A stretch of 24,284 bases of DNA from positions 1 to 24,284 of the IMG/VR virus record IMGVR_UViG_3300023242_000702, one strand, 5' to 3'. The notes beneath the pieces are model-generated. The model ran no database searches. It worked only from the letters and a program-made list of their open reading frames with translations, and had not been told where the DNA came from. Positions 13,426-21,983 of this stretch are shown one piece after another. The translations under genes were made by a program, and so were the position numbers. This DNA is from a virus. Every line of letters begins with the position of its first letter. Positions within the stretch are counted from its first letter, which is position 1.

Positions 13426-14982
13426 TCAAATCCTTTGTTTATAGGCTTTACTTTTTAAGAGGTGTAGTCGCTTCATGCGGCTCGTGGCTTCTCTTGTCGT
13501 TTGTTTCATTGCTGAATCTTTACGCGAACTTCCATTTATTAACTTATCCATTAGAGCAATCTTTACCCCATCTGAACAAGTATCTGCTATATCGTCGTGC
13601 GCGTGAGAATCGTTGTTAGTAATTTTCTTCATGTGGTCTACGCACATTTTTGTATGCGTACCGTGGGCTGGCAAAGATACTTGCTTGCTCGCAATATAAG
13701 GCTGTATATCAATAAATCGTTGTGATTTTGAGCCTGATTTTTTGGTGCGCTCGATTTCTCGTATTTTTAAGCCGCGCATCCCTTTAAGAACTGATATCAG
13801 TGTTACGCCTGTTGATTTTTTTTCAATGTAGGCGGTCATTGGTGGCATTTCATGTCTTGCGCAATCTTGCCAGAAATCTAAAAACTCGGTTTCAAGGCGT
13901 TTAGGCTCAACGCGCATTTCTCTACACGCTATCCAGTGAATAGCCATGATTCCAGTTTTTCTTCCCTGGGTTTCTATCTCGTACATGCCCCAAAAAGAAA
14001 AAACAGTTGCATCGTTACGCGCATCTTCTGTTTCTGCGGTATCTGCGGTAATAAAAGTAGCAATATATTCTGGCTCGATGGCAAGTAATGGGAAATCTTC
14101 TGGTGAGTACAAGCCACCGCCAGCAGGTTGTGGATCTTGCTGATGCTGTGCTGCAAAAACGTACCTGTCTTTTTCTTGTCTAATATGCAACATATCTAAC
14201 GGGAATGCTTCAGGGTAAAGCGCGTGTCCAGCCTCATCTAAAGACTTTAAGACAACCGCATCCCAGGTGTACCCATCTTCACCAGCTAAAAAGAACGCTG
14301 GCAAGTCTTGCTCATGTAGCCTTTGCCCGATAAAAACAATAGGAACATTTATGCCCCGTGGTCGCTGCTGTATTGTTTCACGGAAGTTGGTAATGATACC
14401 TTCACGAATTAAATCACTATGTACTTCATCAGGTTTATGCGCATCATCTATAATAACGCAGCCGCTAAACCTGTCTAATCCAGGAAGACCAGCGTTACGA
14501 CCTGTAATCGCTCCAGATGAACCAAAGGCCGCTACTGTTCCGCCAGCTTGCGTAGTAAAGGCATCTTTTGCTTGGGAGTCATCCCTAAGATGGACGTTAA
14601 AAATAGTTTTATATTGAGATAAAGACATTATGCGCTTAATAACCTCTGTGTGTGAGGCGGCTAATGTTTTTGAATAAGAGATATAAAGAAAGTTACAATC
14701 AGGCCATTTGGCATAACACCACGCTACCCAAAAGCTAATCATTACACTTTTTCCGTGTCCAGGTGGCACGTTTACCAAAAGACGCAAAGCCTCAAGCCTT
14801 GTGCATTTAGTTAATGCTTTAGCAATGGTAATAAAGTGCGATTCCCTGCCAACAGGAGCAGAGATGATAAAATCTCGACCTGTAAGAATGGGAAAAAATG
14901 CTTGAATGAATAGCAGTAAACTGCCTTTAAGCTTAGCAGCAGTTTCAGCGTTTTTAAGCTTAGATTGTAGCTTTTTATCCAT
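13426..14982 (-). CDS. terL: Terminase large subunit (packaging ATPase-nuclease)
   Basis: This encodes 518 residues. The start is the ATG giving MDKKLQSKLK, with AAAGGA upstream; a TTG three codons earlier is not preferred. The ATPase half has Walker A PPGHGKS (about 73-79) and Walker B GCVIIDDAHKP (acidic pair about 179-180). The nuclease half has acidic residues in FITADTAET, AYIEKKSTG and HAHDDIADT. It powers DNA translocation into the procapsid and cuts the concatemer. It is followed directly by portal, as in P22. No small-subunit gene precedes it. A candidate lies ~6.6 kb to the right (21624-21983). Confidence 0.93.
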   Translation of the reverse strand: MDKKLQSKLKNAETAAKLKGSLLLFIQAFFPILTGRDFIISAPVGRESHFITIAKALTKCTRLEALRLLVNVPPGHGKSVMISFWVAWCYAKWPDCNFLYISYSKTLAASHTEVIKRIMSLSQYKTIFNVHLRDDSQAKDAFTTQAGGTVAAFGSSGAITGRNAGLPGLDRFSGCVIIDDAHKPDEVHSDLIREGIITNFRETIQQRPRGINVPIVFIGQRLHEQDLPAFFLAGEDGYTWDAVVLKSLDEAGHALYPEAFPLDMLHIRQEKDRYVFAAQHQQDPQPAGGGLYSPEDFPLLAIEPEYIATFITADTAETEDARNDATVFSFWGMYEIETQGRKTGIMAIHWIACREMRVEPKRLETEFLDFWQDCARHEMPPMTAYIEKKSTGVTLISVLKGMRGLKIREIERTKKSGSKSQRFIDIQPYIASKQVSLPAHGTHTKMCVDHMKKITNNDSHAHDDIADTCSDGVKIALMDKLINGSSRKDSAMKQTTREATSRMKRLHLLKSKAYKQRI

Positions 14983-15120: not shown

Positions 15121-15528
15121 CTAATTCACATCAAAAATGACCAGTCTATCAATGAGATTTTTTAACGATGGGATTAAATAGATAAATTCTTCTGTGAATT
15201 TTACGTGCGGTAGTTCTGATGCGTACTCGAACATAGGCGCAATTTGCTCTGGCGTAAATCCAGCTAATCCGCAGCCGACTTTTGTAACTACATAAATGTT
15301 TTCTGGGGTATGTTTTGCATACATTAAAAACTCAGCAACGTAATAATTTACTTCAAGCAAGCTTAGAGATTCATAAGGAGTTTTTTTAGTTGGTATAGCG
15401 TAAGAGCTGCCTTGCATCCCAGAGCCTTGACCTATGATAGCACCATGTTTTTTAAAAGCGCATAGAGCTGCACCTTTTTTGTGTATGCCAAGAAGATTGC
15501 TTCCAAACACGAATATGGGCTTTGTCAT
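15121..15528 (-). CDS. A1S_2505-type phage non-structural protein, macro-like
   Basis: This encodes 135 residues. The start is MTKPIFVFGSNLLGIHKKGAAL after AAAAAGGTCGAA; a longer frame would run into the Met tRNA. The pattern FGSNLxGxHxxGAA, then GQGSGMQGSSYAIPT, then YVVTKVGCGLAGFTPEQIAPMF is characteristic of a widespread phage family annotated as A1S_2505-type. Its glycine loops recall macro domains that bind ADP-ribose-like ligands. Biochemical function is not established to my knowledge. It lies between terL and the tRNA cluster, in the same direction. Confidence 0.72.
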   Translation of the reverse strand: MTKPIFVFGSNLLGIHKKGAALCAFKKHGAIIGQGSGMQGSSYAIPTKKTPYESLSLLEVNYYVAEFLMYAKHTPENIYVVTKVGCGLAGFTPEQIAPMFEYASELPHVKFTEEFIYLIPSLKNLIDRLVIFDVN

Positions 15529-15543
15529 TTTCGACCTTTTTGT

Positions 15544-15615
15544 AAGCGGATAATGAAATTGCACCATTGGCCTCTTGGGTATGAACCAAGCGTTCTATTA
15601 CTGAACTAATCCGCA
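15544..15615 (-). tRNA. tRNA-Met(CAT), or Ile2 type with modified CAT anticodon
   Basis: A cloverleaf can be drawn. The acceptor TGCGGAT pairs with ATCCGCT in six of seven positions (the 1:72 pair is T-T). The D stem is GTTC/GAAC. The anticodon stem CTTGG/CCAAG is perfect around loop TTCATAC (CAT). The T stem is AATGG/TCATT with loop TGCAATT. The 3' CCA is not encoded. The T-loop has G instead of T at the second position. It lies 15 bases upstream of the macro-like gene. A CAT anticodon can also be a lysidine-modified Ile tRNA; the sequence alone does not decide. Confidence 0.72.
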
Positions 15616-15619
15616 ATTC

Positions 15620-15694
15620 TGGCTGTGGCGGCTGGACTCGAACCAGCATATGGCAGCTTAACAGGCTGTTGCCTTACCAATTGGCTACACCACA
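15620..15694 (-). tRNA. tRNA-Asn(GTT)
   Basis: The acceptor TGTGGTG/CGCCACA pairs fully with one G-T. The D arm is GCCAATTGGTAAGGC. The anticodon loop is CTGTTAA with GTT. The T arm GCTGG-TTCGAGT-CCAGC is canonical, and the sequence ends GCCA with an encoded CCA. It lies four bases upstream of the Met tRNA in the same orientation, so the two are probably processed from one transcript. Confidence 0.92.
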
Positions 15695-15705
15695 ATAATT
15701 GGGTG

Positions 15706-15791
15706 AGGGAAGGACAGGATTTTCACCTGCAACCGTTTGCATTCATTGCTAGCATTACCTGCAACCGCTCTAAAAGTTAAGCTACCTTCCT
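15706..15791 (-). tRNA. Degenerate third tRNA-like sequence, anticodon unclear
   Basis: On the minus strand AGGAAGG pairs with CCTTCCC (one A-C at the end). TA and a good D arm (GCTT-AACTTTTA-GAGC) follow. A T arm GCAGG-TGAAAAT-CCTGT sits at the right place, but its loop lacks the usual TTC. The 35 bases between do not give a normal 7-base anticodon loop: GTTGC/GCAAT would enclose 11 bases. They contain an 11-bp direct repeat, CGGTTGCAGGT. It is in line with the two real tRNAs, 11 bases upstream of tRNA-Asn. It is probably a decayed or rearranged tRNA, or an unusual tRNA-like RNA. Confidence 0.35.
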
Positions 15792-15800
15792 CCATTGCTA

Positions 15801-15865
15801 CGCTCAAATAATATCAGCACCGAAAAGCAGGGATAAGTTGCCGCGATATAAATAATATTTGAGCG
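15801..15865. repeat. Long inverted repeat between tnpB and the tRNA cluster
   Basis: CGCTCAAATA (15801-15810) and TATTTGAGCG (15856-15865) are perfect 10-bp arms. After one mismatch three further bases pair, and the loop is about 37 bases. It lies in the gap between the IS66-type tnpB stop and the tRNA-like sequence. It could end the tnpAB transcript or mark an element boundary. No T-run is seen on the minus strand after it. Confidence 0.5.
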
Positions 15866-15904: not shown

Positions 15905-16252
15905 CTAAGGTTGGTGCTCGATATAATTACTGTTCTCAACGTTACGTGGTTCAAATCCAGATAATAAAATCTCTAGTTCTTCAGCGCTGATAGATTCTAT
16001 GTTATTAAGCATTTTTTTCATTTTGAATCGTGTTTTATCTAATCGTTTATAATACAAAACAAAACCATTCCTATCCCAAAATAAGCATTTAATTTTATCT
16101 TTATGTTTATTATAGAACACATAAATACTTCCATCGTGAAGATGCGCGCCTTTTTCGTGTTCAACAAAAGTTGACAGTCCATCAATGCTCATTCTTAAAT
16201 CAACAGGGTTGGATGCGATAAATATTTGCTTATTTTCATATGGTATTAACAT
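15905..16252 (-). CDS. tnpB: IS66-family accessory protein TnpB (IS66 Orf2)
   Basis: This encodes 115 residues, the usual full length of IS66 Orf2/TnpB. The signature is clear: PVDLRMSIDGL (16-26), then YVFYNKHKDKIKCLFWDRNG (44-63) and VLYYKRL (65-71), followed by a basic segment. IS66 elements normally need TnpA, TnpB and the DDE transposase TnpC. Here TnpC is absent, and tRNAs follow downstream. The ATG overlaps the tnpA stop (TAATG), so translation is coupled. This protein is unrelated to the RNA-guided TnpB of IS200/IS605. The gene is intact with no frameshift, so it may be retained for another use. Confidence 0.9.
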   Translation of the reverse strand: MLIPYENKQIFIASNPVDLRMSIDGLSTFVEHEKGAHLHDGSIYVFYNKHKDKIKCLFWDRNGFVLYYKRLDKTRFKMKKMLNNIESISAEELEILLSGFEPRNVENSNYIEHQP

Positions 16253-16812
16253 TATAAATCCTTTAGTAATTCAATTATTTTTATAAATTTATCGGATGGG
16301 AAATCAGGAGAAACTATTACCTTCACGCCTTTGGTAATAATCAATTCTATATCGTTTTTTTTTGCTGTAAACTTTGGCTCAGGGTTATCTGAATTAATTC
16401 TTCGTGATACAGATTGCGGCACAGATATAAAACTTGGAATTTTTTTACCTGTGTTTTCTTGATTATTTTCTTGGATATAATTCTCATATTCTTTAATTAA
16501 TTTAAGAGCTGATAAATGTGCTTTGGTTTCCCCTAAATGAGCTTTTTTTATATTATATTTTTTTAAAAAATCTTGTTTTGATAAATTACTAGACTTATAT
16601 TCATTAGCGTAATTAACGTACTCACTGTACCATTCTGGTTGCGTGTACCTTTTGTAGTTAATTAAATAATTTAATTTGCATAATTTTCTGTAATCAAAAT
16701 TGTGTTTTTTTGCGTAAACGCTAATGTTACCTCCATATTCTTTCATTTTATCTAAATGAATTTTGGCTTCCCATAATTCTTTTGCTCTTGGTATCTTATG
16801 TCTTGCCAGCAT
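16252..16812 (-). CDS. tnpA: IS66-family TnpA-like accessory protein
   Basis: This encodes 186 residues, starting MLARHKIPRAKELWEAKI after AAGGAGATATA. Two helix-turn-helix-like segments are visible, around residues 27-55 (GGNISVYAKKHNFDYRKLCK) and 75-100 (NLSKQDFLKKYNIKKAHLGE). The end (NDIELIITKGVKVIVSPDF...KIIELLKDL) fits the conserved 'iEl-lpnGv-v-v-p--d---l--il--L' C-terminus of IS66 TnpA. It is longer than many IS66 TnpA proteins and very Lys/Asn/Tyr-rich, in line with low-GC DNA. It is directly linked to tnpB. Together they form the two accessory genes of an IS66 element lacking its transposase. Confidence 0.78.
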   Translation of the reverse strand: MLARHKIPRAKELWEAKIHLDKMKEYGGNISVYAKKHNFDYRKLCKLNYLINYKRYTQPEWYSEYVNYANEYKSSNLSKQDFLKKYNIKKAHLGETKAHLSALKLIKEYENYIQENNQENTGKKIPSFISVPQSVSRRINSDNPEPKFTAKKNDIELIITKGVKVIVSPDFPSDKFIKIIELLKDL

Positions 16813-17002
16813 TATATCTCCTTAAAAAACTTTCACCCTGACTAATAATGTTGCCTAATGTTGTCGCAGATAAAGAAATGCTTTCGCTTGGTGACTTCAT
16901 TATGCCCGTGTACGAACATTTATCTTTATCGCAATAAATAGCTACATAAACGTTAGGGTACTTTTTTGCCCAGTATTTTTTTAAATCCTTTAATTCGTCC
17001 AT
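16796..17002 (-). CDS. 68-residue protein leading the tnpA-tnpB cassette
   Basis: This encodes 68 residues from an ATG preceded by AAAAGGAATTGT. It overlaps tnpA by 17 bases, so it belongs to the same transcript. The sequence (LKKYWAKKYPNVYVAIYCDKDKCSYTGIMKS...TLGNIISQGESFLRRYN) has a beta-strand-like first half and a helical second half. No family is recognised. Standard IS66 elements do not carry this gene in front of tnpA, so it may be a phage gene or a cargo/partner of the cassette. Confidence 0.65.
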   Translation of the reverse strand: MDELKDLKKYWAKKYPNVYVAIYCDKDKCSYTGIMKSPSESISLSATTLGNIISQGESFLRRYNAGKT

Positions 17003-17027: not shown

Positions 17028-17057
17028 ATTAAATCACATAACATAGATTGTGGTCAA
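17028..17057 (-). promoter_or_regulatory. Promoter for the IS66-like cassette
   Basis: On the minus strand TTGACC (17057-17052), 18 bases, then TTTAAT (17033-17028): five of six matches in each box. It lies 26 bases upstream of the 68-residue gene, so the cassette can be transcribed independently of the early operon. Confidence 0.55.
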
Positions 17058-21607: not shown

Positions 21608-21625
21608 AAGCGCAGGGACGCGCTT
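21608..21625 (-). terminator. Probable terminator of the small-terminase operon
   Basis: On the minus strand AAGCGC-GTCCCT-GCGCTT is a perfect 6-bp GC-rich hairpin that begins in the stop codon of the small-terminase gene. It is followed by a short run, TTTTAAA. It sits in the 46-base gap between two convergent genes. The T-run is short, so termination may be partial. Confidence 0.5.
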
Positions 21626-21983
21626 AATAGTCTTGTTCGTATTTACTTTCTAGCTCTTGTATCTTCTCTTGAAGTTCTTTTGTTTCTTCACTCGAAGTAC
21701 TTTCGACAACTTGTTTTTCAACCCACCCGAATTTAGCACCCTGAGTTTTCAAGTACAACGCTTGGCTCTTTTCGTTACCTTCTTCAGCTTGGCGCGCTAC
21801 ACACTGAGCTATTCGATTCACTTGTTCAGCTTGAGCGCAAAGTAATTCGCGCTGATAGTGCTTCGTAAGCGTCTCATCATCTAGCTCAACAATTTTAGCG
21901 ATTAAATATACGGGAATGCCGGCCTTAGCCAAATCTGATATTCTAAGCTTAAGCGCATCAGTTACAATATGTTTATTAGACAT
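21624..21983 (-). CDS. Probable terminase small subunit / phage HTH DNA-packaging protein
   Basis: This encodes 119 residues after AAGGAATAGTT. The N-terminal helix-turn-helix (LKLRISDLAKAGIPVYLIAKIVELDDETLTKHY, 12-43) is followed by a helical segment ending ALYLKTQGAKFGWVEK (75-90). This layout is typical of small terminase-like proteins: 'pe-ia--lgid--TL-khyr-El', then 'a-fwlK-r-gW-e'. A coiled coil closes the protein. P22 gp3 is longer (162). It would recognise the packaging site for terL. It is unusual in lying ~6.6 kb from terL, separated by the early operon, origin region and recombinase. A transcription regulator with the same fold is the alternative. Confidence 0.62.
   Translation of the reverse strand: MSNKHIVTDALKLRISDLAKAGIPVYLIAKIVELDDETLTKHYQRELLCAQAEQVNRIAQCVARQAEEGNEKSQALYLKTQGAKFGWVEKQVVESTSSEETKELQEKIQELESKYEQDY

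Follow-up and report, generated by a model that had tools for sequence, protein, structure and literature searches.

A family of uncultured phages, which probably infects Legionellales, the relatives of Legionella, keeps the IS66 accessory genes tnpA and tnpB intact. The pair does not amount to an IS66 element: searches for a transposase and for the element's ends found neither. IS66 transposition needs all three proteins, TnpA, TnpB and TnpC. From the sequences, we favor with modest confidence the reading that the two accessory proteins were captured from a Legionellales-type IS66 and exapted as a transposase-free DNA-binding complex.

The gene pair and its distribution

The stretch of DNA analyzed here, which we call the window, is IMG/VR virus record IMGVR_UViG_3300023242_000702 at its full length of 24,284 bp, and includes phage genes for terminase, portal, and major head proteins (Table 1). 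The cassette had been described in the initial annotation as undamaged, coupled and equipped with good ribosome binding sites, and this is borne out: tnpA, tnpB, and the 68-residue frame that leads them are all intact on the minus strand, AAGGA/AAGGAG-like sites precede the starts, and tnpA overlaps tnpB by 1 nt (TAATG). The leader and tnpA overlap by 17 nt. A promoter of the cassette's own, proposed at 17028-17057, fails a sigma-70 scan, which returned 9 sites against 11.1 expected from shuffles and thus no excess. In place of tnpC, tRNA-Asn and tRNA-Met follow tnpB, as had been noted, and DDE_Tnp_IS66 was not found in the record; tRNAs follow the cassette in most relatives also.

Table 1. 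The cassette and landmark features of the window
Feature	Position	Strand	Basis or remark
tnpB, IS66 accessory protein TnpB, 115 aa, complete	15905..16252	-	PF05717 and NCBIfam IS66_TnpB
tnpA, remodelled IS66 TnpA, 186 aa	16252..16812	-	AF2 model and family profile match
Leader gene of 68 aa, outside known families	16796..17002	-	14-member alignment
tRNA-Met (15544-15615) and tRNA-Asn (15620-15694)	15544..15694	-	At the expected place of tnpC
Terminase large subunit (terL), conserved downstream landmark	13426..14982	-	PHROG 38, E 8.5e-79
Small conserved gene, PHROG 2072 (no assigned function)	15121-15531		Between the tRNAs and terL
HTH-like gene, possible small terminase	21624-21983		Such a gene also in a tnpAB-lacking prophage

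Some smaller features lie downstream. The gap between tnpB and tRNA-Asn holds a tRNA-like stretch on the minus strand at 15714-15865, GGAGGAAGG...CCTTCCCTC, which is not called by ARAGORN, as well as the inverted repeat CGCTCAAATAATAT/ATAATATTTGAGCG, located at 15801-15865. The PHROG 2072 gene adjoins terL in many relatives too.

TnpB is readily placed in its family, matching Pfam TnpB_IS66 (PF05717) with E 2.2e-30 and NCBIfam IS66_TnpB above cut-off with E 1.2e-27. The phage copies share 70% identity on average and retain the residues that are invariant across IS66 TnpB. A search of the PDB gave no significant structural match for the TnpB model, and no homologous PDB chain for its sequence.

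The tnpA-tnpB pair recurs in 33 further records, comprising 32 virus contigs and one genome bin, for a total of 34 with the window. A TnpB search of viral contigs yielded 26 other records at 50-79% identity, and an alignment search added five; the set is completed by G189 and by L057, a contig from a Desulfosporosinus genome bin that appears to be a misbinned phage contig and was excluded from host inference. A TnpA-like reading frame stands immediately ahead of tnpB wherever the sequence extends that far. Many of these records are 35-42 kb long, and are therefore probably near the whole-genome size for the clade.

The transposase is missing throughout the set that was scanned. DDE_Tnp_IS66 was found in none of 27 records and none of six further carriers, making 33 scanned records with the window included and G189 outside the scan. 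The same search did detect a true IS66 in another contig, control G036 being positive; L056, a genuine complete IS66 that turned up alongside the carriers, was used as a control. Related phages with a complete IS66 at this place, and a unique recent deletion in the window, had been named as the outcome that would speak against a retained function. This possibility was tested and is rejected, as tnpC occurs in no scanned record. The recommended search of phage genomes for the block without tnpC finds the pair in many of them.

The leader, which had been presented as the first gene of the cassette, is instead an independent phage gene. A leader is present ahead of tnpA in the window and in 15 other records examined, and is lacking in about half of the carriers; there, the place upstream of tnpA is taken by other genes, among them a helicase gene and an XRE-type HTH gene. 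Its membership of the cassette is rejected, since it also stands without tnpAB, in L066, L074, and L075.

Remodelling of TnpA

TnpA has diverged much further. The window protein alone finds no library match at a useful E-value, and its kinship is apparent at the level of the family: of 22 aligned TnpA homologues, 19 hit NCBIfam IS66_ISAeme5_TnpA (best E 2.6e-11), and a profile built from the family can be aligned to the TnpAs of true IS66 elements (hhalign 96.7%, E 4e-10) across the first HTH and the C-terminal tail. Searching viral contigs and phage records with TnpA itself returned nothing, because the protein diverges too fast. The TnpA model has no significant structural match in the PDB or BFVD, and its sequence gave one insignificant match only among PDB chains.

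Annotation as a plain IS66 TnpA needs correction. The phage protein is built from tandem HTH units (residues ~4-52 and ~58-121), a variable linker, and a beta-beta-alpha tail (152-186). The AF2 model predicts two three-helix units with pLDDT ~97 over most of residues 1-121, separated from the tail by a disordered linker. By comparison, the nine IS66 TnpAs in our comparison set, of ~108-124 aa, have one HTH each and a shorter linker. Both phage units match this single HTH in profile comparison, and the second matches the first (hhalign 96.5%, E 7e-10), which indicates that HTH2 is a duplicate of HTH1. The tail on its own matches IS66 TnpA weakly (57%, E 1e-4).

Conservation is distributed unevenly over the protein. 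Among the phages, mean identity is 23% for HTH1, 22% for HTH2, 25% for the linker, and 54% for the tail, to be compared with 70% for TnpB and 81% for TerL. We propose docking of the tail on TnpB, with the HTH units recognizing phage-specific DNA. Between L004 and L062, TnpA identity falls from 96% to ~67% at codon 50, and synonymous change rises too, so we read the step as segment exchange, not positive selection. A caution on this reading is that tnpA of L062, which lies at the end of its contig, continues from ~4189 onward as unrelated sequence, probably an assembly chimera.

Borders, position, and descent

A search for IS66 end sequences at both borders, which the initial annotation had recommended, found none in the window. 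No pair of inverted repeats flanking the cassette was found there, and the end of the Legionellales IS66 described below is absent with up to 3 mismatches allowed, a threshold that could overlook the ends of a diverged element. The cassette of many relatives overlaps the neighboring genes on both sides by a few bases, and there is therefore no room for IS ends. Nor does the pair show the multiple copies and varied insertion sites of an insertion sequence: each record has one copy, and in 12 of the 15 records with both genes tnpB lies in a similar place, on the same strand as terL and at most 2.4 kb upstream of it. Five further tnpAB carriers have no matching TerL. It is thus very improbable that the pair is a non-autonomous mini-IS66, moved by a host TnpC acting on ends around it, even though its location elsewhere in the genome in G189, G033, and G035 would suit such an element; the ends not found in the window, the overlapping neighbors, and the single copy per record all speak against it. 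In G189 (L167, reverse strand 460-1860), an SSB-like gene precedes the pair, which lies far from terL, and TnpB is more diverged.

The comparison of synonymous and nonsynonymous change that had been called for points to purifying selection. Median Nei-Gojobori (NG86) dN/dS is 0.11 for TnpB and 0.40 for TnpA, the leader and TerL having medians of 0.24 and 0.035, respectively, values that are rough because they come from the few pairs with finite dS, most pairs being saturated at synonymous sites; over all pairs, TnpB pN/pS is 0.23. By these measures TnpB appears strongly constrained and TnpA only weakly so. Descent of the pair within the clade appears to have been mostly vertical, with exceptions: TnpB and TerL distances correlate with r 0.63 (matched in 0 of 2000 permutations) when two long-branch records are left out, and weakly, with r 0.39 (158 of 2000 permutations), over all 19 records.

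Loss of the pair has left a trace in one genome. In L074, the sequence separating the leader from the gene after it encodes LEILLSGFEPEPAERKPMLLEHRA-stop, the last 24 codons of tnpB, with an alignment score of 100 against at most 49 in 2000 shuffles. Hence an in-place deletion removed tnpA and the larger part of tnpB, which makes the pair old yet dispensable. An IS66 that recently lost tnpC and lingers as neutral debris would decay by just such deletion, but this explanation is scarcely credible for a pair that is intact in diverse records, with a TnpB dN/dS of ~0.1 and tnpC in no relative scanned. The pair is also lacking in the near-complete relatives L066, L075, and L090, and as some phages of the clade do without it, it is not essential. 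This weighs against the idea that the pair belongs to the phage core as a DNA-binding factor, such as an activator of late genes or a factor for packaging or replication at the early/late boundary. The position just upstream of terL and the tandem HTH architecture would both fit such a factor, but we consider it quite improbable given the four relatives without the pair, the in-place loss in L074, and the separate HTH-like candidate for a small terminase (Table 1), a counterpart of which is found in the tnpAB-lacking prophage.

Taken with the 34 records, purifying selection, the lack of tnpC and IS ends, and integration into the phage operon argue that the pair is probably domesticated; constraint persists across diverged lineages, and the machinery of mobility is gone. 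To that extent the domestication proposed in the initial annotation stands.

Probable host and donor, and possible roles

The TerL of this clade occurs in three Legionellales genomes, in one case inside a contig of 3.3 Mb and in another on a 98-kb contig whose TerL region matches IMG/VR record L090, so the hosts are probably Legionellales. The nearest cellular TnpB found, at 48% identity, is present as ten copies with equal match score in one Legionellales genome. The element concerned, in G152, is a complete IS66 that measures 2470 bp, has the ends GTAARCGCTTAATTAACC, and is flanked by 8-bp target repeats, its boundaries set by comparing five of the ten copies. A sampling of the same class, 369 genomes in all, gave weaker full-length TnpB matches (40-45% at best). 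Phage-type TnpB was not found in the Legionellales genomes examined.

We propose that a phage ancestor captured tnpA-tnpB, the donor probably being an IS66 in a Legionellales host, that tnpC and the IS ends were then lost, and that the pair was kept as an accessory two-gene cassette. TnpA would bind DNA via its tandem HTH units, the sequences of which diverge from phage to phage, while its conserved C-terminal tail would hold the constant TnpB. With the DDE subunit missing, such a complex could not cut or transpose, and may act through DNA occupancy as a regulator or roadblock. A bolder version, which we regard as unlikely, is that the constant TnpB core and the exchangeable duplicated HTH units of TnpA make up a modular DNA-targeting complex that is deployed without a transposase against rival elements, either as a weapon or as a regulator. 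A PADLOC scan for a known defense family gave no match.

The main rival to DNA occupation by the TnpA-TnpB complex is an action on host IS66, whereby phage TnpAB would titrate or mis-assemble TnpC or occupy IS66 ends, shielding the phage genome from IS66 insertion while infection proceeds, or else would aid host copies in trans. That Legionellales carry a complete and recently active IS66 of the nearest lineage, with 10 identical TnpB copies and 8-bp target repeats, is consistent with this, as is the retention in phage TnpB of residues invariant across the family. Yet the fold, or contact with TnpA, would explain those residues equally well, the HTH units (22-23% identity) vary far more widely than expected of a protein with one target, and no IS66 end-like site was found in the window; we hold such an action to be a rather doubtful alternative to occupancy of phage-specific DNA.

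Several known systems invite comparison. IS66 insertion sequences (tnpA-tnpB-tnpC), as exemplified by the Legionellales element, share with the phage pair a homologous TnpB, a TnpA, and the order of the two genes; the phage pair differs in lacking tnpC and detectable terminal repeats and in having one copy per genome. TnpB is also present in the genomes of cultured phages, namely Pseudomonas phage Marin, the Leptospira phage LE1 group, and Escherichia phage 4A7, but these IS66 copies include a transposase gene, unlike the present pair, and their TnpBs are at most ~40% identical over a partial match. The modules of IS66 are separable in the ISBst12 group also, members of which have a single ORF, the transposase (PMC12898284); there a transposase persists without accessory genes, the reverse of what is seen in the phages. 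In a paper about captured insertion sequences, the role of the extra ORFs of IS21 and IS66 is described as mostly unknown and probably regulatory (PMC3281130). No earlier account of phages that retain the IS66 accessory genes but lack the transposase was found in the literature searched, in which subscription papers are under-covered. That a natural lineage should maintain TnpA-TnpB under selection with TnpC gone suggests an activity of the pair's own, and at 301 residues the pair provides a small system in which to study that activity apart from transposition.

Further observations concern the clade at large. A prophage-like region in a Legionellales genome (L185, which is on contig 26 of G167, and L090) lacks both tnpAB and the leader, and has a 919-aa ORF upstream of a PHROG 2072-like gene. 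TerL of L011 (5680-8364) and L053 (5473-8094) reads as a single ORF, 873-894 codons long, that contains an intein-like insert, at which the profile matches to TerL are split.
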